Positions 4,948 through 64,000 of a stretch of 64,000 bases of DNA are shown in pieces. Position 1 is the first letter of the stretch, and every line of letters begins with the position of its first letter. The translations under genes were made by a program, and so were the position numbers. Location: the NCBI GenBank assembly GCA_030737835.1, contig CM060856.1:13247116-13311115 (forward strand), read 5' to 3'. The DNA is from Acorus gramineus. Lineage: Eukaryota > Streptophyta > Magnoliopsida > Acorales > Acoraceae. The notes beneath the pieces were generated by a model. It was not told the DNA's origin. It searched no databases and saw nothing but the letters and a program-made list of their open reading frames with translations.

Positions 4948-7900
4948 GCACCTATCCGCGTACAAGAACCCTGAGGTTTGGTTTGATTGGGATAGAATTA
5001 CATCTTTGTTTAGTTTTTCTTGGAAATCTTGGATAGAAAACCCTTCTTGTGTTTCTTCTTGCAGGAGCAGAAGTTCTTGATCGGGGTCATTTTAATGGTG
5101 CCGTGTTATGCTATTGAGTCGGTAAGAGTCCCCACGGACCTCACCTATCTTCTTCTTGTATTGATGAGTGGTTTCTGATCAGGGTCATCTTCTTGATTAG
5201 TTTTTTGCATGCTTATGATGGTGGTTTGATTCGTTGTTAATGAATTGTAAATCAACTACTTGAGGACGTCTGGATAGGTTGCATTCCAATTAAATCGTTT
5301 ATGAAGGGATGTGGAGATTGTTTGAGAAGCGATCTGATTAGGTTTAAATCCGCTCGTGTGAATTGAGAATGCTGAGATAATGTTTTTGGGACAGGAAGGT
5401 GCGGTTAGGAAACAAATAATATAGTGCAAATAATTGACAACTTAGTGGAAGGTGGAACAAAATTTAGAGGCAATGCTGTTAAGAGAGAATGAATGGTTTA
5501 AAACCAAAGGTAACAGAAGAGGGTAATACGGATGTGGTGTTATGGATTGTTTAAGTGCAGAAGCTTTAGTCTTGCATAAAGTTTAGAGTTAATTTCGTCC
5601 AATGAACTCCACTAGCCAACTCATGGTGCGGTCTCAGTGATCATTTTTTGTATAATTATATTTGATTGGTGAAATGGTTTTACTAGTTGAATTGTGTGCT
5701 CTGTTTGGGCCTGGAAAATTAGTAAGATAGTGTATACTGGTAGCTGTGGACTGGCATAATGCTGATGAAATGCTACTTTTATAAGGAGGTTTTATATCTG
5801 ATCATATTTATAGCTCAAGAATTGGTTTGTATTTGGTTATATTTGGATCATGGGATACGTGATTGGTTTGAGTTGAATTGATGTTATCTAGGATTTGAGC
5901 ATGTAGGAGTCAGAGCTATTTGGGATCTCAGCAGCTTAACAACGCTGATCCAGCTAAATGTGTCTAGGTAAATTATGCACTGTAATAGGGTAATATTATT
6001 ACTTGTAACGGGAGGGAGAAGAGCTATAGCGGGACTATGATCAGGCAATGAGAATAAATTATTATTTAGTGGGTCCCTCAATGAAGAAAAGTATGAGAAA
6101 AAAGAAAAGAAATTTTCATCTGATTTGATAGAAATTTTTTTTTTTATTGAAGCTTTACTGGGCGATTGTAGGTGGCATGTTGTATTGCTGTTTTTGAGTT
6201 TTATGTTGCCATCAGCATATCTTTAATTTAAATTAATCGTCATGCTGGCCTGGCACTTATGATTTTGGATGATACGTCATTAATAAACTCATCTCTTGAG
6301 TTTTTGGAACTTTTAATCTCCATCTTTTGAATTTTTCTTACCTGTCAAATTGTGTAGCTAACATCCTTTTTTTTTTTGCTCTAGTATGTGTCATTAGTGA
6401 ACCCATCAATCAGTGTGGATTGTGAGATCCTGCGTGACTGCTACGAGGCATTTGCTATGTATTGTTTTGGAAGATATCTGGTCGCATGTCTGGGTATTGC
6501 ATCTATAAACCCTTGTGTCATTATTTTAAATTTTACCATCTGGTTTTACTGCGTAGTGAGTAGGTGCATTGTGTTTCTTGGAGAATGTACCCTACATTTT
6601 TACTCTTTTGTCAATGATGGGTCTACTTTGGTGATACATTTGATAAATGTGAGTTGGAGCCGATGCTAGTTGAGCCATATTTTTCTTTGTGATTGTTTAC
6701 TGTGCTTATTTTATATAATTTAGTGACTATGCATTGTTGTGGATCATGTTTGGTTCTTTGTCTGGCTAAATGCCTCAGAGATGCAAATCCTATACGAAAT
6801 GCACCTTCTTACTCTTCTAGCTGTATATCTAGCATATGGGTTAACTGTGAAGCTTGAGTGACTGACAAGGTAGGTTTTTCTACTGTCATGCCAAGAACTT
6901 GATAGCAGGTGTCCCTCCTGCTTATCAACTGGCCTCCTTGGAATATTTGCATTATTTATAGAGTGCTTGATGCAGTAATAAAAACCAAAAGAATCACCAA
7001 GGACCTCTTTCAAACTCAATAGAAATAATTATAAAAAAACCAATGACTTTTACAACTCTAATGAGACATTTAAGTTTGTTGAGGTTGGTTAATATCAAAT
7101 CTAAATCTCAAACCATCTCATCAAACAAATATATTAACCACCTAACAACTCAATATATTATTAACAGTCTAATCCTTACAAATTTATTTTCAAATTCATA
7201 GATAATATCTATGGTTACATAACAATCTAAATTATATCCCTCTACCGGGGGAGAAGAAAGGGGGGGGGGGGTGTTTGGTTCCTAATAATGTATCTACTTT
7301 GGGCACACTCTCAAATATTAATAAATTAAGGACATCTGAACACCTTTATAAGAAAGAAATCAAAACAACCCTATATTCAATTTGTATAGGTAAGTCAAGT
7401 TTATAGATGATCATATAATATGTTGATTTTGTATGGAGCCTATTTGATTTCTTTGAGATATGTTCCATTAGTTTCATCATTCTCCCAATGTGTAATACTC
7501 TTTTTGTTGGAATTGCGATTAGATATGACAGCTTGGCATATGACAAAAATTCAGTGGTCCTTCCCATTTACTCTTTTTGATTTTGCTTCAGAAAATTGTA
7601 CATGCAACATTATTGATGGGAAGAATAGTTAGTTATAGGAAAAATTATGGGGAAAATAATAAATATCATGCAGTAGGACGTGAATTTTTTATTCAGATGA
7701 AGCACATGAATTAATGTAGACACTTATCATTCAAATGATGGATCGGTAATTGTTATGTTATTCAGTGATCTCTTGTTGCTTCTTGAACATAGATATGCTC
7801 ATTCTGGTCTCTTCATTTAAGTGTGTAAGTTACTGCATTAGAAATTGAATCACAAATGGGCCCCAAAACTATTCAGAAATAGATCTAAACCTTTTGTAAT

Positions 7901-19262: not shown

Positions 19263-22200
19263 ACTCATTTCAACCCAGTAGTTCGTTTAACTGGACTCGG
19301 GTTGAACGGATTTGGGCCATCTTTGGGATTGATTATTGGGCCCATCCTTGTTGTAGCCTTGTAGGTAGCAGACATACAAATTTTGATAGAGTTACAATAT
19401 TACACTCAGTGCATTTTACGGTCTAAAATATAAATCACACGTCTTTTTATTTTTTACTTTTAAAATCATATACTTCATCCAATTAAAATATGTACTTTTA
19501 TAAAAATGTGAATTATATATGCTAATGAATTGAATGATATCATTATATAAAATATTAAAAAATTAACAAAGTAATACTTCGTTTATAATGAGTTGATGGT
19601 GCTAACGTAGGTAAATAGAATAGTATTTTAGATTGTAAGACTGATTTAGTGTAACAACACTCAATTTTGACTAATTTGATGATCCAAATTAATATATGTA
19701 AATAACAACATGACATGAATTATGAATGTTTTACTTTTTGGAATTATTCAAAGAAAAAAGTGGAAAACAATTATGTTTACACCCTTGCTTGTGCAATCCT
19801 TATCTATTTTAATTTTTTTAATAATATATATCATATAATGAGATATCTACATTTTTAATGCACGAAGTAGATGTACCTATTTTTATCTGACCATGTAAAC
19901 AAAACTCGGGAGTTTCAAAATTTACATGGTTGAAAGTTGAAAGGATAGAATCCAGTAGTCAAGAGATACATATTTGGAAGTTGAAGAGGTGAGGTATTTT
20001 TAAAAAAATAAAGATAAATGTTTGCTATCTCATTTCATTTCTGAATTCAAATTATAAATTTTGAAGGGGGGAGAATAGAGAAAAAAAGAAATACAAGGAT
20101 AAGGAAACATTTGTTGCAGGTTGGAAGAGTGATTTAACTGACAGTGCAAAGAGTAATCTAACTGACAAGGCAAAAGCTGTCACCCTGTGATATGAAGGTT
20201 TCCATCTCAAAAAGATAGAGGTTTGGGAGTCGGAAGAAATGAGTCGGGAGATGAAGAAGTGGTGAACTTCAAAGTTCCAGATTTTGTGGTAAAGTGACAC
20301 TTCTCTCTTAAGCCTCGTTTGGTTTGTGTCAATTTAAGATAGATTTTAATTCCATGTGAGATTATCAGGAAATTGTGTGAAATCTACTATTTGGTTAGTG
20401 GTAATTTTAATGGTAATTTGTGGGCTCCACTGAAATTAGATCTATGCATATGAAAAAATATGGTGGAATCAAAATCCCATCCTTTGTAATTGTAATATCA
20501 AATTCCACTAGGAATTTTAAATTAAATTATCATTCTACCATTTATAAATTAATTAAATTACTATTTACATATCTTATAAAATAAATAGCATATTTTATTT
20601 TTTTACCCACCTCCTCCTCTCTCTTTTTTTCTTTTTTTATTCGCTCTACTAGATTTAATACCTCCATTGAATATCAGGTATGACTCGATTACATTTGATT
20701 TTATAAACAAAATTGTTTAATTTTTTGAAGTTAATATAATTTTTAATAGAACCTCCGCCATCCTCAGCCAAGGCTGGCAAATTCATGCGCGCCATTCAAT
20801 AAATTTTGTTTTATTTCTTGTCTTTTAACTTTAGAAAAAATATTTTATTTTGAGTTATTAATATTCCATCATTTGAAGTTTTTAAAGAGTTCATAATATT
20901 CAACTAATTTAGAAAAATTACTATTATTATGTGTTTAATTATATAATCGATTATATAATTTATTTATTTGCATTCGTTAAATATTTATAAAAAAATTATT
21001 CATTTTTTATAATTATGATATGGATAAGGAAATAAATTTTGTAAGTAGATTTATAATAGTAAACATATTTTAAACATTTGAACCAAATTCCTTGCAAGAA
21101 TCTATGTGTGAACTAAACATTGAAAAATGATTAATTACAAAAATTTACTTGCGAACCAAATAGTCTAATGAAATTTAAATTATTGATAAAGTAAAATCCA
21201 TAAAAAAAATAACACGAAAAAACAGGACCTTAGAGCAACTCTAATCGGCCTACAAAATGAGGATATGCAGGCCGACTGGCTCCAATGGGAATGTAAAATG
21301 CAATTTTAAAGACCCCAAATTTACTCTAACTTTTAAATTTAAAGACCTATTTTTAATTTCAAATCGGATGTTTAAATCTGGTGTATGCTCATTTAAAAAT
21401 TGAAGACTTTCTATAAATGACATTTTTTTTATTGGATATGAGGAAGTTTATAAAGAAAACAAGGGTTGGGATGTAAAGCAAAAACAACATATGAATCATG
21501 TGTTTAAACTATCAAACATACGCATTCAAATCAATATCTTAAAAGTCTCTTCTAAATCTTGATTAATTCCTGTCTAAATTTAAGTGAATCAACCCGCAGA
21601 GCTTAGAGCCTATCCATTTTTTTTTATTAATCTTTAATAAGTTATTAAATTACTTTTTATATTATATATTGATTAATTATTTTTTTATTCTATCTTCTCA
21701 ATCTTTCCCCGAGCGCCCAGCTTTTTTTCCAATTTTATCCCAAACCATGCCTAATATGGATTATCCCAATTATGGACGTTAATGATTGAAGAAAGGCAAA
21801 ATAATCCCTGATCATCTTGTCCTTTATAGTACGTGGAATAAAAAATGAAAAATATTATTATATCATATGATGCGTATGTGTACTTAAGACAAAAATAAAT
21901 AAACGGTCACAAATTGCCAACTATTCCACGAATGATTTGTTATTGTTAAGAACCACCATCTGATCGTCATCAACTCCAGACATTGATCAAACCACACTGA
22001 TTTGACCCCCCCTCGTACAAGAAGACGACAATAGTTCTGCTACTTATAATCCATATAACCCCCTCAGTTGTCTGAAATCCTTATGAACCCCTAATTTTTT
22101 TTTTTTTAAGTCTATATAACTCTCTACGTGCACATGTGTAAATCCAAATAATTTGTAAGTTAAATTTTTGTTGATAGAAAATAAATATTATATAAATATT

Positions 22201-22643
22201 TTATTTGATTAACTTTAACTAAAAATATTTTATATCAAAAAATTCTATGACATGTTAATAACACAATTATTTAAATAACTATTTTATTTTTTCAGAAAGT
22301 GCTTTATGATCTATTTAGAAAGATAAAATCATTAATTACATAAAAAAATTTTGCATTTTTAAATAGGAATTTTGATATACTGTGTTTTCAAATAGAGTTA
22401 ATCAAATAAAATATTTGTATAATATTCATCGTATTAACTCAGTGTGTTATTTGGATTTATACTTGTTTTTAGGACTAAAAAAAAAAAAAAATTATAAGGA
22501 TTTTTTTCGAACAGTTTCCTGGGAAATATTAGATTTTTTTCAAAAAAAGAAAAAAGAAAAAAATGATGGACCGTTGAAACTCCATTGATTGTTCAGTCTA
22601 AAAGGAGCACGAGAAGTGGCAAACCCTGCCATTGAAAGAAAAC
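19263..22643. other. Intergenic upstream of SBE1
   Basis: AT-rich DNA with no credible gene. Stretches near 20311-21236 and 21229-21600 look like decayed small DNA transposons, but I could not find matching ends. Near 22045-22140 there is a relic resembling the ends of the elements at 47.9 and 57.1 kb. The SBE1 5' UTR probably starts near 22590. Confidence 0.5.
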
Positions 22644-38800: not shown

Positions 38801-38860
38801 AAATGAGGTTCAGGTTATTTGGATTCAATCTAAATGAGGTTCAGGTTATTTGAATTGAAG
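38801..38860 (+). repeat. Two tandem ~30-bp units
   Basis: The phrase 'atctaaatgaggttcaggtt' followed by atttg occurs twice in direct tandem, one or two substitutions apart. Confidence 0.65.
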
Positions 38861-47859: not shown

Positions 47860-48398
47860 GGAAAATTTGCATATAAGAAAGTACAAATAACCCCCTCAAA
47901 AATTGATCTATCCATGTAACAACACCCTATAATTCGTCATGGTTAAACAAATAATCCCTTGATGTAAGTCTCTTGTTAACAAAATTGAATATTCCATGAA
48001 ATATTCCGTCCACCTGAAACCTATAAAACCCTTCTAAAAATTAACAAAATTCAAAAAGCCCTTCTAAATGAATATATTGCCCTTCTTGATGATATTGTCC
48101 CCTTCCAACAGCTCATCTCCGCCGTTCAATTCTGCCATGACCGCGACATCTCCACCGCGATTTCAAATTCGAGAACCTCCTTTGTAGATGCGGAGGCGAG
48201 GAGGAGCGGAGGAGTTGAAGAGGGTTTGCATTTCTTCCTGATCTCCTTTGAATTGCGTTTCATGTCATCTGCTCTGTTTTTGTATGTAGAGAGAGAGAGA
48301 GAGATTCGTATTATGTAATGAATGAGAATATGAGATCAGACGGTAGTGGTGGTTTGGGGTCAGATAACGAACGGTAGAGATGTTGTTGGTGGTGGTCT

Positions 48399-48439
<41 letters not shown>

Positions 48440-49925
48440 TAGCCTCTGTTTTTAATGGTCTCAATTCATTCAATACCACTGCGACATGTACTGGCTGTTC
48501 AGCCTAAGAAGATTGAGTGGATCAGATGATCCAAGAGAGGGTGTGTTTGTGTGTTTTGGATCTCATTTTCTAGTTTTTTAGTTTTAAGTATATGCATGCA
48601 TGTCTATTTAGAAATCCATCCATCATTTCTTCATATTGTTTTTAGGTTCCGAGAAGTCTCAACCAAAAGTTTGTCCATCTACAGCTAGAATGTGAAAAAT
48701 GATTTTTATTTTTAAGTCTCTATAATTCATGTTATTTAGTGATCAGTCCATTCCTTCTTCATATTTCAATTTAAACTCCACTTTAATTATTTTTTTTTTA
48801 CTAATATATGGATAAAATGTCTATATGATTTTGTAACTATTTTGATTTTTGAAACTTGTACACAAAATATTTGGTGAAATATGTAAATCAAAACTGCATT
48901 TGCATTATTAGGTGTTCAGTGATAATTTTAATGTTATTCAACATTGTATATGTTCACCCAATCCGATATTGCAGTCTCTTATAGTCTTAACTGTCTAATT
49001 AAGAATGATTAGATAAGCAGAGGGTATTTTCAATATTAAATTTTGATTTAAATGATTTTTTCTTAGTTTAAAATTGTGACATATTAAATTAGATATTTTG
49101 AATGCATTAAATTTTAAATTTAAAATTTAATGCATTCAGATGTCATTAAAAAAGTTGTATGTAGTTAATGAAAAATTTATTTTACATGATTCTAATATTT
49201 TATTTATTAAAACATTTTATTTTGCATGAAAAATTAAAATCACGCAAAATAAAAATCATACAGACATTTTGTATATAAGTTTCAAATATCAAAATACTTA
49301 AAAAATCATATAGACGTTTTGTTAGGGACTAATAAAAAAATACATTTGAATTTAGAGATTTAAAATGAAATATAAAGAGGGACCGACCACTAAATAACAT
49401 AGTTCATAGACTTAAAATAAAAATAATTTCACTAACTCGGAAGGACTAAAAACGAAGTGAGTGGTTGAAGGAGACTTAAAAATAAATATGAAGAATAGAG
49501 ATATTGATATCTAAATAGACATGTTTATAAGGACTTAAAACTAAAAATCTCTAATATATATATGTTGATATTGTTAAAATTAGAAAGTAATAACAATGGG
49601 ATCTAATTTTATTATGTATGAACTAAAGCCATGTGTAACAAATAATACGATGAAGGAAGATATATGAACAAGTATATGTTACACGTGTAACAAATAATAT
49701 AATACATGTGTAAACTAACCCTTTAACATACATATCTAGAAGGTTGGGGGCATACTTGGGAATTTTACACGTGTGGTTTTAAGTTAATCATACATTGGAT
49801 TATAGGGTACAGCAGGGGGTATTTTGAATTTAATAAAAAAATTATAAGGTTTTACATGGATATATTAATTTCCGAGGGGTTTTTCTGTATTTCGTTGATT
49901 TTCACGGGTTATATACATTTTCCCC
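47860..49925. mobile_element. Mutator-like element with captured kinase fragment (unit A copy)
   Basis: The left end (ggaaaatttgcatataag, later aataaccccctcaaaaattg and atctatccatgtaacaac) matches the reverse complement of the right end (ggggaaaatgtatataaccc, then atatccatgtaaaacc and atacccccTgctg-like sequence), giving inverted arms well over 100 bp. The ends resemble those of the element at 57102. Target-site duplication is obscured by A/T tracts. A shorter copy is at the same place in unit B (55909-56527), so insertion came before the duplication. Confidence 0.6.
48095..48190 (+). pseudogene. Ser/Thr kinase catalytic-loop fragment inside the 47.9-kb element
   Basis: Translation gives FQQLISAVQFCHDRDI in one frame, then HRDFKFENLL after a one-base frame change near 48151. 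Together they read like the alpha-E helix and the HRDxKxEN catalytic loop of a CIPK/SnRK-type kinase. The flanks are not kinase sequence and the frame is broken, so this is a captured, non-functional piece. It is GC-rich against its surroundings. Unit B lacks it. Confidence 0.5.
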
Positions 49926-50796
49926 TTAAAAAAATAAATAAAGTTGACCAGTGGACCAGATGATGTACCTCATATGACAAACTTTGCATACCCTCACATG
50001 GAAAACTAATGTTTTCTGTTTTCTTGTGGGAATTTTTTTTCTTAGTCAAATTTTATTTATTGAATTTGGATTATTTTTTTGGGTACATAGGCCTGGATAA
50101 GGCGACACAGAACAGACAGGTCAACAGAGACCCTATAACAACTACTTCGTCAAAACTCATAGTAAACTAGTCCAACAGGACTGGAAAATTATGTTCACCT
50201 TGTTAGAAACAAGGGCTGAACTTTGATCATCCCCACGGAGTGGGGGTGTCCCTATCAACATGGGAGAGCCACCGGGGACATTTAATTGTAAATTTGGTTA
50301 ATGCTCTCCTTAAACAAATAGCATATACAATTACATAAGATCCTTGTATTTACTTATATTAAATTTGGTTGTAAATTCATGTTAATCCTCTCTTCAAACA
50401 AATAGCATATACAATTACAGAAGATCCTTGTATTTACTTACATCAGATTTCAACTTTTATGCAGATCTACTTGACCAAAGGTATCTCCACGGACATTTGT
50501 ACAACTCTAACACATACTATTCAAGCAGAGCAATCTTTTTATTTATTATATCAAATGCGAGTATTATATTCACGTCCTATGCATATCTGCAAAGTCTAAT
50601 CAATCCATGCATATTAACTACTCAAACATAATCTAAATTTCAGTTTACAAGGATAACAATTTGGGTAATCAACAGACCATATCTAATTCATGCCAAATGT
50701 TATAAATGAAAAAAGAAAAATCTTACAAATAATCCAACATGCCAAAATTTGAAAGATTTCTACATTCTTGTATGTATAACTCTCACTAGACCTCCC

Positions 50797-50929: not shown

Positions 50930-53386
50930 ATGGAAGGTACTATCCGGTGCCCAGCGAACTACGTTCCGCTGACCCCAATAAGCTTCCTCAAGAGGGCGGC
51001 GTTGGTCTATGGAGACCGAACCTCCATCATCGACGGTCCGGCGAAGTTCACCTGGTCTGAGACGTATGAGCGATGTCTCAGGCTCGCCACGGCTCTCACT
51101 CAAATGGGTGTGTCCAAAGGCAACATTGTGAGTACTTGTTAATCAAGTGTGGATTACATAATTTTATGTTTAGTTGTTATTTTATGGATAAGATTGTGTG
51201 ATAATTAAGATTCCCTTGGTGTAAGATAGTTATTGAAACAAAAACCACAGGGTCCGATTGGAAACCCGTTTAAACACGATTTTGCTTTAAACGTGCTTTT
51301 AAACTGTTATGGAAAAATCTATTTAATTAAAAAGTTTATTTCAGTTTCTATTATTCAAAGTATATTTTTTTGTAAGTGAAGAAAATAAGTTTTTGAAGAA
51401 TCGAATTTTATTAAACTACTTTAATCATCAGGTTGCGGTGATCGCCCCGAACATCCACGCGACGTATGAGATGCACTTTGGCGTCCCAATGGCCCAGGCA
51501 GTCCTCTGCATCATCAACCACTACTACGATGCGCAAACGCTCTCTGACGTCATCACTAATGTCGCGCCGAAGTTTCTCTTCGTCGACCACCAGTTCCTCC
51601 AACTAACCCAACAAGCCCTCCAAACCGTCACCAACCCACCCACATTGGTTCACATCTCCGACCCAGACTCCGCTAAATCCGAATCCGAACACGAGCACGC
51701 GCGCGCGGACTACGAGTCCTTGTTGCGCGCCGCTGACTCTTACGCGGAGTTTGAGGTGAAGTACCCGGAGGACGAATGCGAGGCGATATCGCTCACGTTC
51801 ACGTCCGGCACGACCGCGACGCCCAAACCGATCGTGTACAGCCACCGCGGCGCGTACCTGAACGCGCTCGCGTCAATCCTCGTCAACGAGATGGTCCCGC
51901 GCCCGACGTACCTCTGGACCGTGCCGATGTTCCACTGCAACGGTTGGACCTTCTGCTGGGCCATGCCCGCGGTGGGCGGCACCAACATCTGCCAACGCAG
52001 CTTCTCTGCCAAATCCGTCTTCGACGACATCACACGTCACGGCATTACCCATCTCGGCGGGCCCCCAAGCCTCCTCAACATGCTTGCGCGCGCGTCCGAG
52101 GAGGATCGGAAACCGCTCCCGCACCGTGTGGAGATGATGACGGGGGGAGGTCCCCCGCCACCACAGGTAAAGACACAAAAAAGGCCCTTCACATTTTTAT
52201 AAGAAAAGAAAGTCTCTTTTATTCTCCCTCACATACTCACAAGGAAGGCTTATCTTCATTATTAGAGCAATAGAAAAAACATATAATCTCCTGAGGAAAG
52301 TTTATTTTCATTAATGGAGTATATACTCACATTCACGGTGTACATGTTTTGATGGAAAAAACATATATTTTTTTTCTCCTTGAAAGAGGTCAAGAGATTA
52401 AATTCAGGAGAATATTATTCTTTAAAAAAAATAAAAAAGCAAACAAACCTCTTACTTTTTCAAAAGTGATCAAGGGATCAAATCCTGATTTAAAAAAAAA
52501 TGAGTATATGCTCTATAATGGGTGTCCAGAAAAACTGATTTTTGTAGACAATCCCCTAAGAGCCCCTATATATATATATGATTCTCCTGCTTATTCTAAT
52601 GGCAAATCAGTTATTTCATTTTATTACCTTTTCTTCTTTGATGATACGGTGGTGTGATCTTCCACCTTTTGATTTGCAACTTTTAAATAGGTAGTGCTGG
52701 AACTCGAGTCACTGGGTTTCCGTGTTCAACACTGCTACGGCTGCAGCGAGACCTACGGCGTGGCCACGTTGAACTACTGGCGTCCCGAGGAATGGGACGC
52801 GCTCCCGCCCTACGAGCGCGCGTGCCTCAAGGCGCGGCACGGGCTCAAGCACCCGCTGATGGAGGAGGTCGACGTGAAGGACCCCATGACGATGCGGTCC
52901 GTGCCCGCGGACGGTGTCACCATCGGTGAAGTCATGATGCGGGGCAACAATGTCTTGCTTGGATACTACAAGGACCGGGTGAAGTCGGAGATGGCATTCG
53001 AGGGAGGTTGGTTCCGACACGGGGACCTGGCGGTGAAGCACCCAGACGGGTACATAGAGATGAAGGACAGGAAGGTGGACGCGATCGAGTCGGGCGGGGA
53101 GTATCTGAGCACGGTGGATATAGAGAAGGTTTTGTATAGTCACCCAGACGTGTTCGAGGCGGCGGTGGTTGGAGTGAAGGATGAGGAGCTTGGGCAGGTG
53201 CCTTGCGCGGTTGTGAAGCTGAAGGAGGGGAAGGTGGGGGACGCGGAGGGGATTGTTGGGTACTGTAAGGAGAGGTTGCCCGAGAAGATGGTGCCGAGGA
53301 AGCTTGTGTTTGGGGAGATTCCGAGGGTTGGGTCCGGGAAGCTGCAGAAGAAGGGGTTCAGGGACATGGTTTTTAGTGAGGACTGA
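50930..53386 (+). CDS. Acyl-activating enzyme (AMP-dependent acyl-CoA synthetase), copy A
   Basis: Probably activates a carboxylic acid with ATP to an acyl-AMP and then to its CoA thioester; the substrate is unknown. It resembles plant AAE1/AAE2-type enzymes. Three exons (50930-51127, 51432-52166, 52691-53386) encode 542 residues. The start MEGTIRCPANYVPLTP is typical of the clade. Visible motifs: LTFTSGTTATPKPIVYSHRG (P-loop-like), FHCNGW, GCSETYG, HGDLAVKHPDGYIEMKDR, SGGEYLS, and GSGKLQKK with the C-terminal catalytic Lys. Two changes are odd: the P-loop reads PKP where the family has PKG, and the hinge region reads DRKVDAI where relatives read DRSKDII. The protein stops 14 residues after the catalytic-Lys GK, as DMVFSED, with no SKL/SRL-type peroxisomal signal. 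Exons are very GC-rich. Intron 2 holds SINE 3' ends. Confidence 0.9.
52350..52502 (+). repeat. Two SINE-like 3' ends in intron 2 of copy A
   Basis: Two successive segments, 'agaggtcaagagattaaatt' and 'gtgatcaagggatcaaatcc', each have a box B-like core and an A-rich tail. They match the family at 36.5 and 54.7 kb, and intron 2 of copy B holds the same pair (61235-61375), so they came before the duplication. Confidence 0.5.
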
Positions 53387-55908: not shown

Positions 55909-56527
55909 GGCAAAATGAGTATAACCCCCTAAAAAAATCAGCAAAGTACAGATAACCGCCTCAAATTGATCTATCCATATAATACCCTAAAATCTATCAT
56001 GATTAAACAAATAATCCTTTGAGGTCTGTCTCTGTGAACAGAATCGGAATATTCCATAGAATATGATCAAAGAGAGGGTGTGTTTTGGATTTCATTTCCA
56101 ATGATATATATGTTGATATATATAGAGATATGTGGAAATGGAGATTTAAATGGGTTGGGTTGATTAGGCTGCCTATATTATAATGCAGATATGGTGGATG
56201 GTGCACGTTGGATGCGAGGGCGGTGGCAGCGGAGGTCTTCGAGCGGCGCCGGAGGTGGCCAAGGTGGGGGTTTTTAATTTGAAAAAAATACATATAATCC
56301 CCTGAGAATTACATATGATGGAATGAATCATTTGCTAGGGTTGGGGGCATACTTGGAATTTTACATATGTGGTTTAAATTCGTTAACCCTACATTGGGTT
56401 ATAGAGTGTAACAATATAGGGTATTTTGAATTTAATAAAATATTACATAGTGTTATATGGATTATTAATTTTCAAAAGGTTAATATGTATTTTGCTGATT
56501 TTTTAGGGGGTTATATACAATTTTTTC
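55909..56527. mobile_element. Internally deleted unit B copy of the 47.9-kb element
   Basis: Both ends match the unit A element: gagtataaccccct and ctatccatataatacc at the left, 'ggggttatatacaatttttt' type sequence at the right. The interior is cut from about 2.07 kb to 0.62 kb and lacks the kinase fragment. A GC-rich patch at 56190-56270 is of unknown origin. Confidence 0.6.
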
Positions 56528-57101
56528 TTAAAAAAATAGATAAAATTGGCCGTTGGACCCAACCACGTACTTCACGTGACAAAGTTTGCATTACCCTCAC
56601 ATGAAAAACTAATGTTTTTTTTATTTATTTTTATTTTTGGTATAGAAGTTCTGTAGGGTCATTACAACTGATGGATCTAATAAGGTGATTATAAACTTAA
56701 TAGCCTCAAAAGGACCACAAATACTTTCATACACAATCTAAGTTGAGTCAAGCCCATGAACAGTCATAGCTGTGCTTTAATTACCACATTTTTTCTTGCT
56801 AGAAGCAAGAATTGATCATGTGCCTCCTCTTGGGAAGGGTGACCCTTTATCAGGCGAGCTATGGCTCGCCATCTAGGGCTCACCATTCACTAAATGGAAT
56901 GGGTTTCATTGAATTTGGTTGTAAATTCATGTTAATCTGCTCTCAAACAGATAGCATATACAATTACAGAAGATCCATGTATTTACTTACATAAGATCTT
57001 TCCACTTTTGTGCAGATGTACTCATTTACTTGACCAAAAGTTATCTCCATAGACCTTTGTACAACGTTAACACATCCTATTCAAGGAAAGCAATCTTTTT
57101 A
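56528..57101. other. Unit B noncoding DNA between two elements
   Basis: Aligns loosely with 49930-50541 of unit A: shared cttgctagaagcaag-like and gtaaattcatgttaatc phrases, and 'tagcatatacaattacagaa'. No gene is seen. Confidence 0.5.
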
Positions 57102-59214
57102 GGGAAAAATCCATGTAACACCTCAAAAACATAAGAAAATTCAGATAACCCTTACATTTTCTCAAAATCCAAATAACCCCTAAAACATATAACCAAAATC
57201 CAAAAAAACCCTTCTGTCAGTTAAATTAACTATATATTACCTGAATTTAACCCAACATGTATATTTACATTTATACCCTTTATTAAACAAACCTTAACCT
57301 CCGTCGCCCCCCCAAACAATCTTGAGTCTCCCGAATACAAATTAATCGAGATAGATCGGATCTGGAGCGGAAGATCTCATCAATGACATCATCTCATCCC
57401 CTCATATTGCATATCTTCGTCCCCGAACACAATATCATCCCTTGAGTGGTCCTCGTCTAATCACCGACGTCTTGTGTGTTCCTTTCTGATAATATGAATC
57501 GCTTTTAACGAGCAGTTCTCCCTTTTAGCAGCGGTGGTATGTGATTTTTTAACCCTCAGGCACCTTCAAATAGTTCCATACCTCCTCACACACAACTTTA
57601 TTCATTGCACTCACCAACCTCATCTTCGTCATTTCTCTGGCATCCACATCCACCCATCTCTCATCTTAAATTTTTTTATTATTATTCATGCAATGTGAAG
57701 CCATATATATATTTTTTTTTTCATTCCTCCCACTGTATCCGCCTTGTTAGCTCTATGATAAGCAATCTATGTTGGCTGGATATAGCATCGACACAAGTAT
57801 GCACATGGCAGAGGGGCGAGAAATGGAATGACAAGAAAAATAAAATCCTAACAGAGGAGTTCCATCTAAAAACAGAGCATAACCCAACTCGATGTCCACA
57901 CCAAAAAAAAAAAAAGAAACAATAAACACCACCCAAAAGAATACAAATGGCTGTTGATGTTATCTCCATTACATGCTCAAACATATGAAGATTATAATGT
58001 TCACTTAAGATGTTATACATGAAAATCTCTATCACCATAGCAAAATCAGTGGCTTGGATCTATGTATTTTACTTTTGTCTTGGACACAAGTGGACTTGAT
58101 GTAGATGAAGAAGATGACATTTAAATGAAGGAGTTTAGATAGGATGAATTGGGTATTGGAGATCCATCTTTTGATCGAATTCCAATGGGTGTCAACGGGT
58201 AAGTTGGAGAGGATTGAAGGAAGAAGAATATATATAATTATAACACAGGAGGGGTAAAAGTGTAATTTGTAGGGGTTTATATGTGTTTTTCCAAGTTTAC
58301 AGGGACTAAATTGATAATTTTTTTTAATTAGGCTGTGATTATTCCTACTATTATTCAGCCATAATCACTCCTAATTACTACCCCTAATCATGGCTGATTA
58401 TCCTCTATCACACTAGTTTCTACACAGTTGATTATTGACTTGTATAGGCTAATTAATCCCGCCATTATTTGTCCATTACACCACCTATACAGACAGTCAT
58501 CACTTACCTTGCATTGAAGAAATGTAACTTAATTCCTATCAATCACATGGTTAAATACATATTTCTTATACAATAATACAAGATGTGTAACGAATTCTCC
58601 CTTATTACCAATTTTATCATAGTTTTCATATTTTTTTCTACAAAAATATGGTTATAAAATTTTTAAATCTTTGTTAGAATGATTCTTTTTTTTTTTTTAT
58701 CTTTACTAGCCTAGATATATTGAGATCAATTGTATTTTTTTCAATTATGAAATCTATTACAACACTTCACACTGAGATGAAAGATGATTTTCTTGTAGAT
58801 TCTATGATTATTTACATTGAAATTTTATTTTGCTGAAAATATTGACTCAGATCGGATAAAAGATGATTTATATTCTTTAAAGGATCGTAAATACAGTTTC
58901 AATAACATATTTATGAAAAAACTTAATCTTTTGTCTATTTTTATATTTTTGCATATCTATGACAAAATTTACTAGAAATGAAGTAAAAACTTGTTTGGTT
59001 TATATAAAATTTAAATTGTTTATTAGATTTGGAGTTCATCTTAGCCCCTCCCAATATAAAATCCTAGTTCCGCCCTTGTCTGTCAGTGGTTAATTAACTC
59101 ATGGGGGTGTTTTAGATTTTGATTATGTTTATGAGGGGTTATTTGGATTTTGAGAAAAGTCAGGGGGTTATCTGGATTTTTGTATGTTTGTAGGGGGTTA
59201 TATGGATTTTTCCC
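57102..59214. mobile_element. Mutator-like element, 2.1 kb, 9-bp TSD, empty site preserved in unit A
   Basis: Flanked by identical 9-mers ATCTTTTTA at 57093-57101 and 59215-59223. Unit A has the 9-mer once, uninterrupted, at 50533-50541. The termini are inverted: GGGAAAAATCCATGTAAC at the left, and GGGAAAAATCCATATAACCC on the reverse strand at the right. Similarity continues inward for more than 100 bases (tctcaaaatccaaataaccc on both arms). The interior has a GC-richer block at 57300-57490, a T-rich region, and no transposase or recognisable gene, so it is non-autonomous. The insertion came after the segmental duplication. Confidence 0.88.
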
Positions 59215-59223
59215 ATCTTTTTA

Positions 59224-59737: not shown

Positions 59738-62240
59738 ATGGAAGGTACTATCCGGTGCCCAGCGAACTACGTTCCGCTGACCCCGATAAGCTTCCTCAAG
59801 AGGGCGGCATCGGTCTACGGAGACCGGACCTCCATCATTGACGGTCCGGCGAAGTTCACTTGGTCTGAGACATATGAGCGATGTCTCAGGCTCGCCACGG
59901 CTCTCACTCAGATGGGTGTGTCCAAAGGCGACATTGTGAGTACTTGTTAATTAAGTTTGTGTTATCAAGAATTACATAATTTTATGCTTAGTTGTTATTT
60001 TATGGATAAGATTGTCATAATTAAAGTTCCCCTGTTGTAAGTTGGTCATCAAAACTAAAAACATAGGGCCCAATTGAAAACCTATTTAGACACGATTTTG
60101 TTTCACAAGAATCAACAAAACTAGTGTTTCCAAATGATTCTTGGAAAAGCCTGCTTAATAAAAAAATTTAGTTTTTCAAAAGCGGAGAAAGTGAGCTGTA
60201 ATTTTATTGAACTACTTTAATCATACCATTCAAACTGGTTTTCGAAATGATCTTATCAGGTCGCGGTGATCGCCCCGAACATCCACGCGACGTACGAGAT
60301 GCACTTTGGCGTGCCGATGGCCCAGGCGGTCCTCTGCATCATCAACCACTACTACGACGCGAAAACATTCTCTGAAGTCCTCATCAAAGTCGCACCGAAG
60401 TGCCTCTTCGTCGACCACCAGTTCCTCCAACTAACCCAACAAGCCCTCCAAACCGTCCCCAACCCACCCACATTAGTTCACATCTCCGACCCAGACTCCG
60501 CTAAATCCGAATCCGAACACGAGCACGCGCACGCGGACTACGAGTCCTTGTTGCGCGCCGCTGACTCTTACGCGGACTTTGAGGTGAAGTACCCGGAGGA
60601 CGAATGCGAGGCGATATCGCTCACGTTCACGTCCGGCACGACCGCGACGCCCAAACCGATCGTGTACAGCCACCGCGGCGCGTACCTGAACGCGCTCGCG
60701 TCAATCCTCGTCAACGAGATGGTCCCGCGCCCGACGTACCTCTGGACCGTGCCGATGTTCCACTGCAACGGTTGGACCTTCTGCTGGGCCATGCCCGCGG
60801 TGGGCGGCACCAACATCTGCCAACGCAGCTTCTCTGCCAAATCCGTCTTCGACGACATCACACGTCACGGCGTTACCCATCTCGGCGGGCCCCCGAGCCT
60901 CCTCAACATGCTTGCGCGCGCGTCCGAGGAGGATCGGAAACCGCTCCCGCACCGCGTGGAGATGATGACAGGGGGAGGTCCCCCGCCACCGCAGGTAAAG
61001 ACACAAAAAAAAGCCCTTCACATTTTCATTAGAAAAGAAAGTTTCTCTTTTATTCTCCCTCACAAACTCCCAAGGAAGGTTTATTTTCATGCATATACTC
61101 ATATTAACAATAACAAGGTATATGTTTCAATAGAAAAAACATATATCTTACAAGGAAAGTTTATTTTTATTAATGGAGCATATATTCACATTCACAGTGT
61201 ATACGCTTTGATAGAAAAAACATATATTTTTCATCTCCTTAAAAGAGGTCAAGAGATTAAATCCAGGAGAGTATCATTCTTCAAAAAAAATAAAAAAGCA
61301 AACAAACCTCTCACCTTTTGAAAAGTGGTGAAAGAATCAAATCCCGGAGAATACCATTCTTAAAAAAAAAAAAAGAGTATATGCTCTATAACAGAATGGG
61401 TGTCCAGAAAAACTGATTTTTGTAGACAATCCCCTAAGAGCCCCCATATATATATTCTAATGACAAATCAATTATTTCAATTTTATTACCTTTTCTTCTT
61501 TGATGATACGGTGGTGTGATCTTCCACCTTTTTGACTTGCAACTTTTAAATAGGTAGTGCTGGAACTCGAGTCACTGGGTTTCCGTGTCCAACACTGCTA
61601 CGGCTGCAGCGAGACCTACGGCGTGGCCACGTTGAACTACTGGCGTCCCGAGGAGTGGGACGCGCTCCCGCCCTACGAGCGCGCGTGCCTCAAGGCGCGG
61701 CATGGGCTCAAGCACCCGCTGATGGAGGAGGTCGACGTGAAGGACCCCATGACGATGCGGTCCGTGCCCGCGGATGGGGTCACCATCGGTGAAGTCATGA
61801 TGCGGGGCAACAATGTCTTGCTTGGGTACTACAAGGACCGGGCGAAGTCGGAGAGAGCATTCGAGGGAGGTTGGTTCCGACACGGGGACCTGGCGGTGAA
61901 GCACCCGGACGGGTACATAGAGATGAAGGACAGGACGGTGGACGCGATCAAGTCGGGCGGGGAGTATCTGAGCACGGTGGATATAGAGAAGGTTTTATAT
62001 AGTCACCCAGACGTGTTCGAGGCGGCGGTGGTTGGAGTGAAGGATGAGGAGCTTGGGCAGGTTCCTTTCGCGGTTGTGAAGCTGAAGGAGGGGAGGGTGG
62101 GGGACGCGGAGGGGATTGTTGGGTACTGTAAGGAGAGGTTGCCCGAGAAGATGGTGCCGAGGAAGCTTGTGTTTGGGGAGATTCCGAGGGTTGGGTCCGG
62201 TAAGCTGCAGAAGAAGGGGTTCAGGGACATGTTGGTTTGA
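59738..62240 (+). CDS. Acyl-activating enzyme (AMP-dependent acyl-CoA synthetase), copy B
   Basis: Tandem duplicate of the gene at 50930, same three-exon structure (59738-59935, 60260-60994, 61554-62240), 539 residues. Exons 1 and 2 have exactly the same lengths as copy A. By eye about 19 residues differ in the shared ~535. Seven of these fall in residues 101-114 (AKTFSEVLIKVAPKC here, AQTLSDVITNVAPKF in copy A). The same PKP variant of the P-loop is present, and the hinge reads DRTVDAIKSGGE. The C-terminus ends KKGFRDMLV, again with no peroxisomal signal, and differs from copy A because homology breaks just before the stop. The frame stays open 327 bases into intron 2 (to 61321), while copy A stops after 36. 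It appears intact and expressible; substrate and expression are unknown. Confidence 0.9.
61235..61375 (+). repeat. Two SINE-like 3' ends in intron 2 of copy B
   Basis: Same pair as in copy A: 'agaggtcaagagattaaatc' with an A-rich tail, then gtggtgaaagaatcaaatcc with an A13 tail. Confidence 0.5.
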
Positions 62241-63365: not shown

Positions 63366-64000
63366 AAAAAAATCATTTTTACGTTTTCCAATGAGAATAA
63401 CAAAAAATGCAATCAAACAAAAAATTTCTTATTCAGTCTGAATTGTTATCTATCATAGTATAGCTATCAAGAGCAAATAACCTAATGACACACCCCATAG
63501 GGGGGGTAAAATCATGTACATGCAAAAATAATAGGATGACATGTTCCATTTTAATTGATGTAATATATGTTAGATAAAAAGATGATCACAAAAGATGATC
63601 ACATTTTTGACACTGAATGTCTAGATCAGATCCCTTTCAAATCACACATCATTAGCTCGATAATGTTATCTCATCCGTTGAAGGTTCTATAGCAAGGAAC
63701 TCAAGATTCATGCCATAGCTTCCACTGATGTCAATGTTTTTATTTTTAGCTGAAGTTAGACATTGTATTAAGATAGGAACATCAATACAAAGTCCAAAAT
63801 TTGGAAAAGAGAGAGATAAAGTACATAGACTAAAAAAACCAGAGGAATAAAATAAAGGAAGGGAATACCCCGGACCCCCGCTGGATAAAAAACTATGGTA
63901 GGCGAGACACTACCTAGAGCAGTGACTAGCAAAGTCCGTAGCCATCAACAATCATCCTCCCTCCGCGGAAACGGACCGATGTAGCCCCAGATATAAAACA

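Follow-up and report, generated by a model that had tools for sequence, protein, structure and literature searches.

A Mutator-like element and its unoccupied sister site upstream of duplicated AMP-binding enzyme genes in Acorus gramineus

Two closely similar AMP-binding enzyme genes (copies A and B) lie in a 64-kb stretch of Acorus gramineus DNA, which we analysed as a whole and refer to as the window. The duplicated unit that carries copy B (unit B) is interrupted in front of the gene by about 2.1 kb that the corresponding unit with copy A (unit A) lacks. What is this additional DNA, and can the order of gene duplication and insertion be read from the two units? We conclude that it is very probably a non-autonomous Mutator-like element (MULE), which would have been joined to its target by a MURA-type transposase from elsewhere, most likely after the duplication, and which would later have been hit by a young repeat.

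A first-pass annotation of the locus had reported a perfect 9-bp target site duplication (TSD), an empty site in the sister unit and element ends fixed to the base. The observation of the element, the TSD and the unoccupied site is confirmed (Table 1). The two TSD copies are identical, and unit A has one 9-mer at the corresponding position; elsewhere in the 64-kb window, ATCTTTTTA has a single further match, on the minus strand at 63575. When the element is removed together with one TSD copy, unit B aligns with unit A across the insertion point. The two units differ by five bases in length in an AT run, a few bases downstream of the junction and not at the junction itself. Both element ends, read inward, start with GGGAAAAATCCAT, which has no other exact match within the window. 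The left and right terminal inverted repeats (TIRs) are 82% identical over 112 aligned columns, and each is built of four sub-repeats with the core AAATCCAnATAACCC. The lengths of the TSD and of the TIRs lie within what is usual for MULEs, which have TSDs of 9-11 bp and long TIRs, typically of 100-500 bp. The element coordinates given earlier proved exact, and genome copies (see below) support them as well.

Table 1. Coordinates of the features discussed in the text (positions in the window)
Feature	Position	Strand	Remarks
Mutator-like element, apparently non-autonomous	57102-59214	.	2113 bp including nested repeat
Left TSD copy, ATCTTTTTA	57093-57101	+	
Right TSD copy, ATCTTTTTA	59215-59223	+	
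Unoccupied site in unit A, 9-mer ATCTTTTTA in single copy	50533-50541	+	
Left TIR, four ~30-bp sub-repeats	57102-57211	+	
Right TIR, four ~30-bp sub-repeats	59104-59214	-	
MULE interior	57212-58310	.	L027 (closest sibling found) matches in blocks, 81-88%
Nested insertion, young high-copy repeat, unclassified	58311-59078	.	~768 bp; left junction within 58311-58320
Older related element, unit A	47860-49925	.	2066 bp
Same older insertion, unit B, shorter	55909-56527	.	619 bp
AMP-binding enzyme gene, copy A	50930-53386	+	3 exons, 542 aa, open
AMP-binding enzyme gene, copy B	59738-62240	+	3 exons, 539 aa, open

The ends of the element recur throughout the genome examined (398.6 Mb). The 22-base family end was found at 7148 sites with at most three mismatches, in comparison to one site for the reversed pattern, which served as a control. 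A genome search with the left TIR yielded 165 candidates, and all 40 that were scored showed at least 78% identity. We took 34 loci, covering 38 left-TIR matches outside the window element. TIR matches in both orientations were present at 28 of these loci, while at six (L016, L017, L031, L034, L039 and L040) the TIR was seen in a single orientation, so that any longer elements there were covered in part. The ends gave 33 pairings, seven of which were dropped: those of L009, L014 and L041 that were inner or crossed, two from L015, and the pairings at L027 and L036, where the far end was only partly matched. The 26 pairs kept and the window element make up the 27 pairs analysed below. Two close TIRs in the same orientation were also observed at L041:2912-3206 and L015:3742-4112, resembling the tandem-TIR MULEs described in PMC3310237.

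The first-pass annotation had proposed a search with the element ends for genome copies with 9-bp TSDs, and such copies exist. The flanks match exactly at 9 bp in 7 of the 27 pairs (6 of 26 when the window element is set aside), compared to none of 702 cross-paired flanks. Exact matches at 8 bp were found in 2 of the 27 pairs, and at 4-7 and 10-14 bp in none. With at most one mismatch, the flanks of 11 of the 27 pairs match at 9 bp, where the cross-pairs predict 0.15, and three at 8 bp (0.58 expected); the 5- and 6-bp registers, with six pairs each (2.77 and 1.23 expected), show a milder excess in A+T-rich sequence. The nine target bases have an A+T content of 92%, in comparison to 70% at 11-30 bases leftward (27 pairs). 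At the register used, a 9-bp duplication is absent in 16 of the 27 pairs, and in some of these (e.g. L010 and L024) it emerges when an end is shifted by 2-3 bases. Loci L018, L019 and L020, about 98% alike over kilobases, were not accepted as independent evidence for the TSD, and the seven exact cases include none of the three. Different termini among the copies or a TSD of another length had been named as results that would contradict the assignment. Neither was seen: the termini are common to the copies, and 9 bp is the only length that stands out. The window element belongs to a large Mutator-like family that is apparently non-autonomous.

Unoccupied sites were also found for other members. 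Joined flanks of the 27 elements were checked against the window and the fetched loci, and for three elements a match spans the site: for the window element in unit A (85%), for L021 within its own locus (99%), and for L023 at L037 (90%). L021 has a local duplication, with the element in one copy and an unoccupied site in the other. For both L021 and L023, the flanks read through after removal of one 9-mer, and the two TSD copies differ by one base. These two additional pairs of element and empty site, together with the genome copies, support the Mutator-like anatomy and the repeated family proposed earlier.

Within the window, family ends had also been described at 47.9 kb. A related element is indeed located there, but it is diverged and older, is present in both units, and has termini other than GGGAAAAATCCAT. 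When the window outside 57102-59214 was scanned for arrays of four cores, the scores were 46 at 22047, 45 at 56522, 44 at 49920, 41 at 55913 and 37 at 38857, with a top score of 36 in 20 shuffles as a control. The arrays at 49920, 55913 and 56522 are parts of a single older insertion that the two units share, the left end of which in unit A (47.9 kb) scored 34 at 47960, not above the shuffles. The unit A version additionally shows an imperfect inverted repeat at 48572-49550 (72%). At 22043-22500, the array at 22047 is followed by an imperfect palindrome (22181-22429), and a second end is unconvincing.

MULEs are known to be mobilised by a MURA-type transposase that can be supplied in trans, with a 9-bp stagger at the target. 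For the window element, such a transposase, encoded elsewhere, would have recognised the TIRs and joined the element to its target by cuts staggered by 9 bp, and repair would then have produced the 9-bp duplication. MULE transposase domains (PF10551) are abundant in the genome (150 scored of 1162 candidates). Linking one of them to this family, as the first-pass annotation had suggested, did not succeed: when 116 of the 150 scored domains were compared with 134 end sites (34 of the 40 left-TIR matches and 100 of the 7148 pattern sites), the closest pair was 11.4 kb apart, and the 19 Pfam-scanned frames from the fetched loci (translations for 4 of the 34 loci) contain no MULE domain, leaving no autonomous MURA partner with the same ends among them. 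One L034 frame matched Transposase_32 and one L029 frame the plant mobile domain, both located outside the paired TIRs found there. Contig 3 (G000:C3, 13610949-13616326) has a pair of exact family ends in facing orientation, 5.4 kb apart, a size that would suit an autonomous element. Around the window element, five of the 23 listed frames (126, 111, 109, 67 and 66 aa) were compared with Pfam; none of these five matched any family, such as might mark a captured host gene fragment between the TIRs of a Pack-MULE.

The length of the window element is partly due to a second insertion. L027 matches the window element in three blocks, is without 58321-59078 and bears an insertion of its own; about 47 bases of L027 at the place of the nested repeat are absent from the window element. 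A genome search with the nested repeat (40 scored of 236 candidates) revealed 39 other copies with 91-98% identity, 26 of them matching over the full length, and in most of the other copies the repeat starts at the position corresponding to 58311. When the left junction was used as query (40 scored of 158 candidates), one match, the window itself, spanned the junction, while two covered just the MULE part and 37 just the repeat. Together, L027 and the junction query indicate that the window element consists of a MULE of about 1.35 kb and a younger insert that no other MULE copy was seen to carry. The repeat would thus have entered the element later, provided that it arrived in place. Its right end resembles hAT ends (Tip100); with no matching second end found at up to two mismatches and no 8-bp duplication visible by eye at the borders, we leave the repeat unclassified. 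The nested repeat was also rejected as a firm lower date for the element, as its closest relative (98%) only caps the age of the nested insertion.

Regarding the order of events, the element would have inserted into an A+T-rich 9-mer upstream of copy B, most likely after the tandem gene duplication. This is the simplest reading of one occupied and one unoccupied unit, yet "proves", the word chosen in the first-pass annotation, is too strong, given that precise MULE excision is reported (PMC5225508) and that no third unit was found. In yeast assays, excision of Muta1 from TSD-bearing donor sites was about 90% precise, and a value of 97.44% is quoted in the same paper for excision of rice Os3378 in yeast (PMC5225508). 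Since MULE excision is mostly precise in these assays, unit A could represent a clean loss: the insertion would then predate the duplication, both units would have been occupied, and unit A would have lost the element and one TSD copy. A 603-base unit A query gave five genome matches, all within the window; the assembly thus yielded no third unit by which the change could be polarised. Identical TSD copies would be expected with a probability of 0.39-0.45 even if they were as old as the duplication (flank divergence between the units 0.09-0.11, K2P), which favours a younger insertion by only about twofold. A loss from unit A would require two events instead of one, and no trace of the element is present in unit A; we consider such a loss unlikely. 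We prefer an insertion into unit B after the duplication.

The insertion had also been called dated, of which a relative bound remains, as 9-mers carry almost no clock. The TSD was rejected as a clock for its near-zero information (the probability given above), and TIR divergence was rejected because the two ends differ in many copies. Its insertion probably followed the duplication and preceded that of the nested repeat, the latter on condition that the repeat arrived in place. More generally, where MULEs are concerned, finding a paralogue with a clean empty site is not in itself proof of which event came first.

The divergence between the two gene copies is uneven. It amounts to 0.23 in intron 1 and 0.10 in the other intron, and synonymous divergence is 0.097 overall; within the coding sequence, the first 567 bases show 0.18 and 0.15, the 366 bases that follow 0.05, and the remainder 0.075. 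A coding run of 294 bases is identical between the copies (permutation P = 0.001), which, with intron 1 at 0.23, suggests gene conversion between copies A and B. The start codon of copy B is located 524 bp past the element end, and that of copy A 389 bp past the unoccupied site. The window element provides a base-exact, family-checked case of a MULE a short distance from the start codon of one member of a pair of closely similar enzyme genes. The two copies offer a natural comparison for an upstream insertion, which might, as the first-pass annotation suggested, change the regulation of copy B.

We also investigated the sub-repeats of the TIRs in 40 ends from 20 of the 27 elements (a further analysis took 30 ends). 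The median spacings are 30, 29 and 31, and exactly these values were found in 30 of 36, 22 of 35 and 17 of 32 measured cases, respectively. At least 11 of the 14 core letters are present in 38, 34, 35 and 22 of the 40 ends for the four sub-repeats, compared to 0.6-1.9% of shuffled ends. This conservation does not amount to independent proof of constraint, because the copies share descent and were found by their TIR likeness. The four sub-repeats most likely offer the transposase several places to dock at each end. In maize, MURA reportedly binds a TIR motif of about 32 bp (PMC3310237), close to the sub-repeat length of about 30 bp. More tentatively, and as a possibility we would not rely on, the fixed, phased array of four non-identical sites per end (30, 29 and 31, about three helical turns) could form a defined four-site complex for a transposase or an anti-silencing protein, and not a loose tandem repeat; this design would then underlie an end population that, with about 7100 sites in 399 Mb, ranks among the larger ones known for MULEs.

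Should the sub-repeats mainly be targets of a MULE-encoded VANC-like anti-silencing protein, their role in transposition would be secondary. VANC target regions of Arabidopsis VANDAL elements are indeed described as tandem repeats, but as rapidly diverging ones (PMC10398659), whereas order and spacing are kept among the copies aligned here, and we regard this as highly improbable. Foldback-type behaviour, with the sub-repeat array as the mobile signal instead of a Mutator-like TIR proper, also appears very unlikely. Tandem sub-repeats in long TIRs do define Tm1 (9-bp TSD; PMC3169594) and Muta1 (8-9 bp; PMC5225508), and Muta1 has been called a type 2 Foldback TE (PMC5225508). However, Foldback elements vary in sub-repeat number, with 1-9 units reported for Tm1 (PMC3169594), while the aligned copies have four per end at near-constant spacing, a constancy of number that the choice of copies by TIR likeness favours. 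In addition, the TIRs make up only about one tenth of the element, and the Foldback label overlaps with that of MULEs, as Tm1 and Muta1 are themselves Mutator elements. We did not meet a TIR of four ~30-bp repeats among literature titles and the starts of abstracts, and such TIRs may exist elsewhere. With its four sites, the TIR offers a compact test bed for studying end recognition by long-TIR MULEs.

Compared to known systems, the element fits the long-TIR MULEs; the finding is genuine and was well observed, and it is of an ordinary kind. The long-TIR MULEs of plants, as described in PMC3310237, likewise have TIRs longer than 100 bp, TSDs of 9-11 bp, non-autonomous copies and tandem-TIR variants (here L041 and L015), and differ from the present family in that its TIR is built of four sub-repeats and no autonomous partner has been linked to it. 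Muta1 of Aedes aegypti shares the Mutator superfamily, a TSD of 8-9 bp, a long TIR of tandem repeats and many non-autonomous copies, but it is reported from an animal host and with nine 12-bp repeats separated by spacers of 3-4 bp (PMC5225508), in contrast to four repeats of about 30 bp here. The Tm1 Mutator/Foldback family of root-knot nematodes also combines composite TIRs of repeated motifs with a 9-bp TSD; its units, mostly of 14 bp, vary in number between ends (PMC3169594), whereas four per end are found here. MuTAnT of Medicago is likewise a non-autonomous plant MULE with A+T-rich targets, for which empty sites, a standard form of evidence, were used, and its copies outside TA repeats have a 9-nt TSD, as does the window element (PMC4486113). 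The MuTAnT elements are mostly foldback elements of 200-300 bp in TA microsatellites, with 218 copies reported (PMC4486113), while the element described here is longer and belongs to a family with thousands of end sites.
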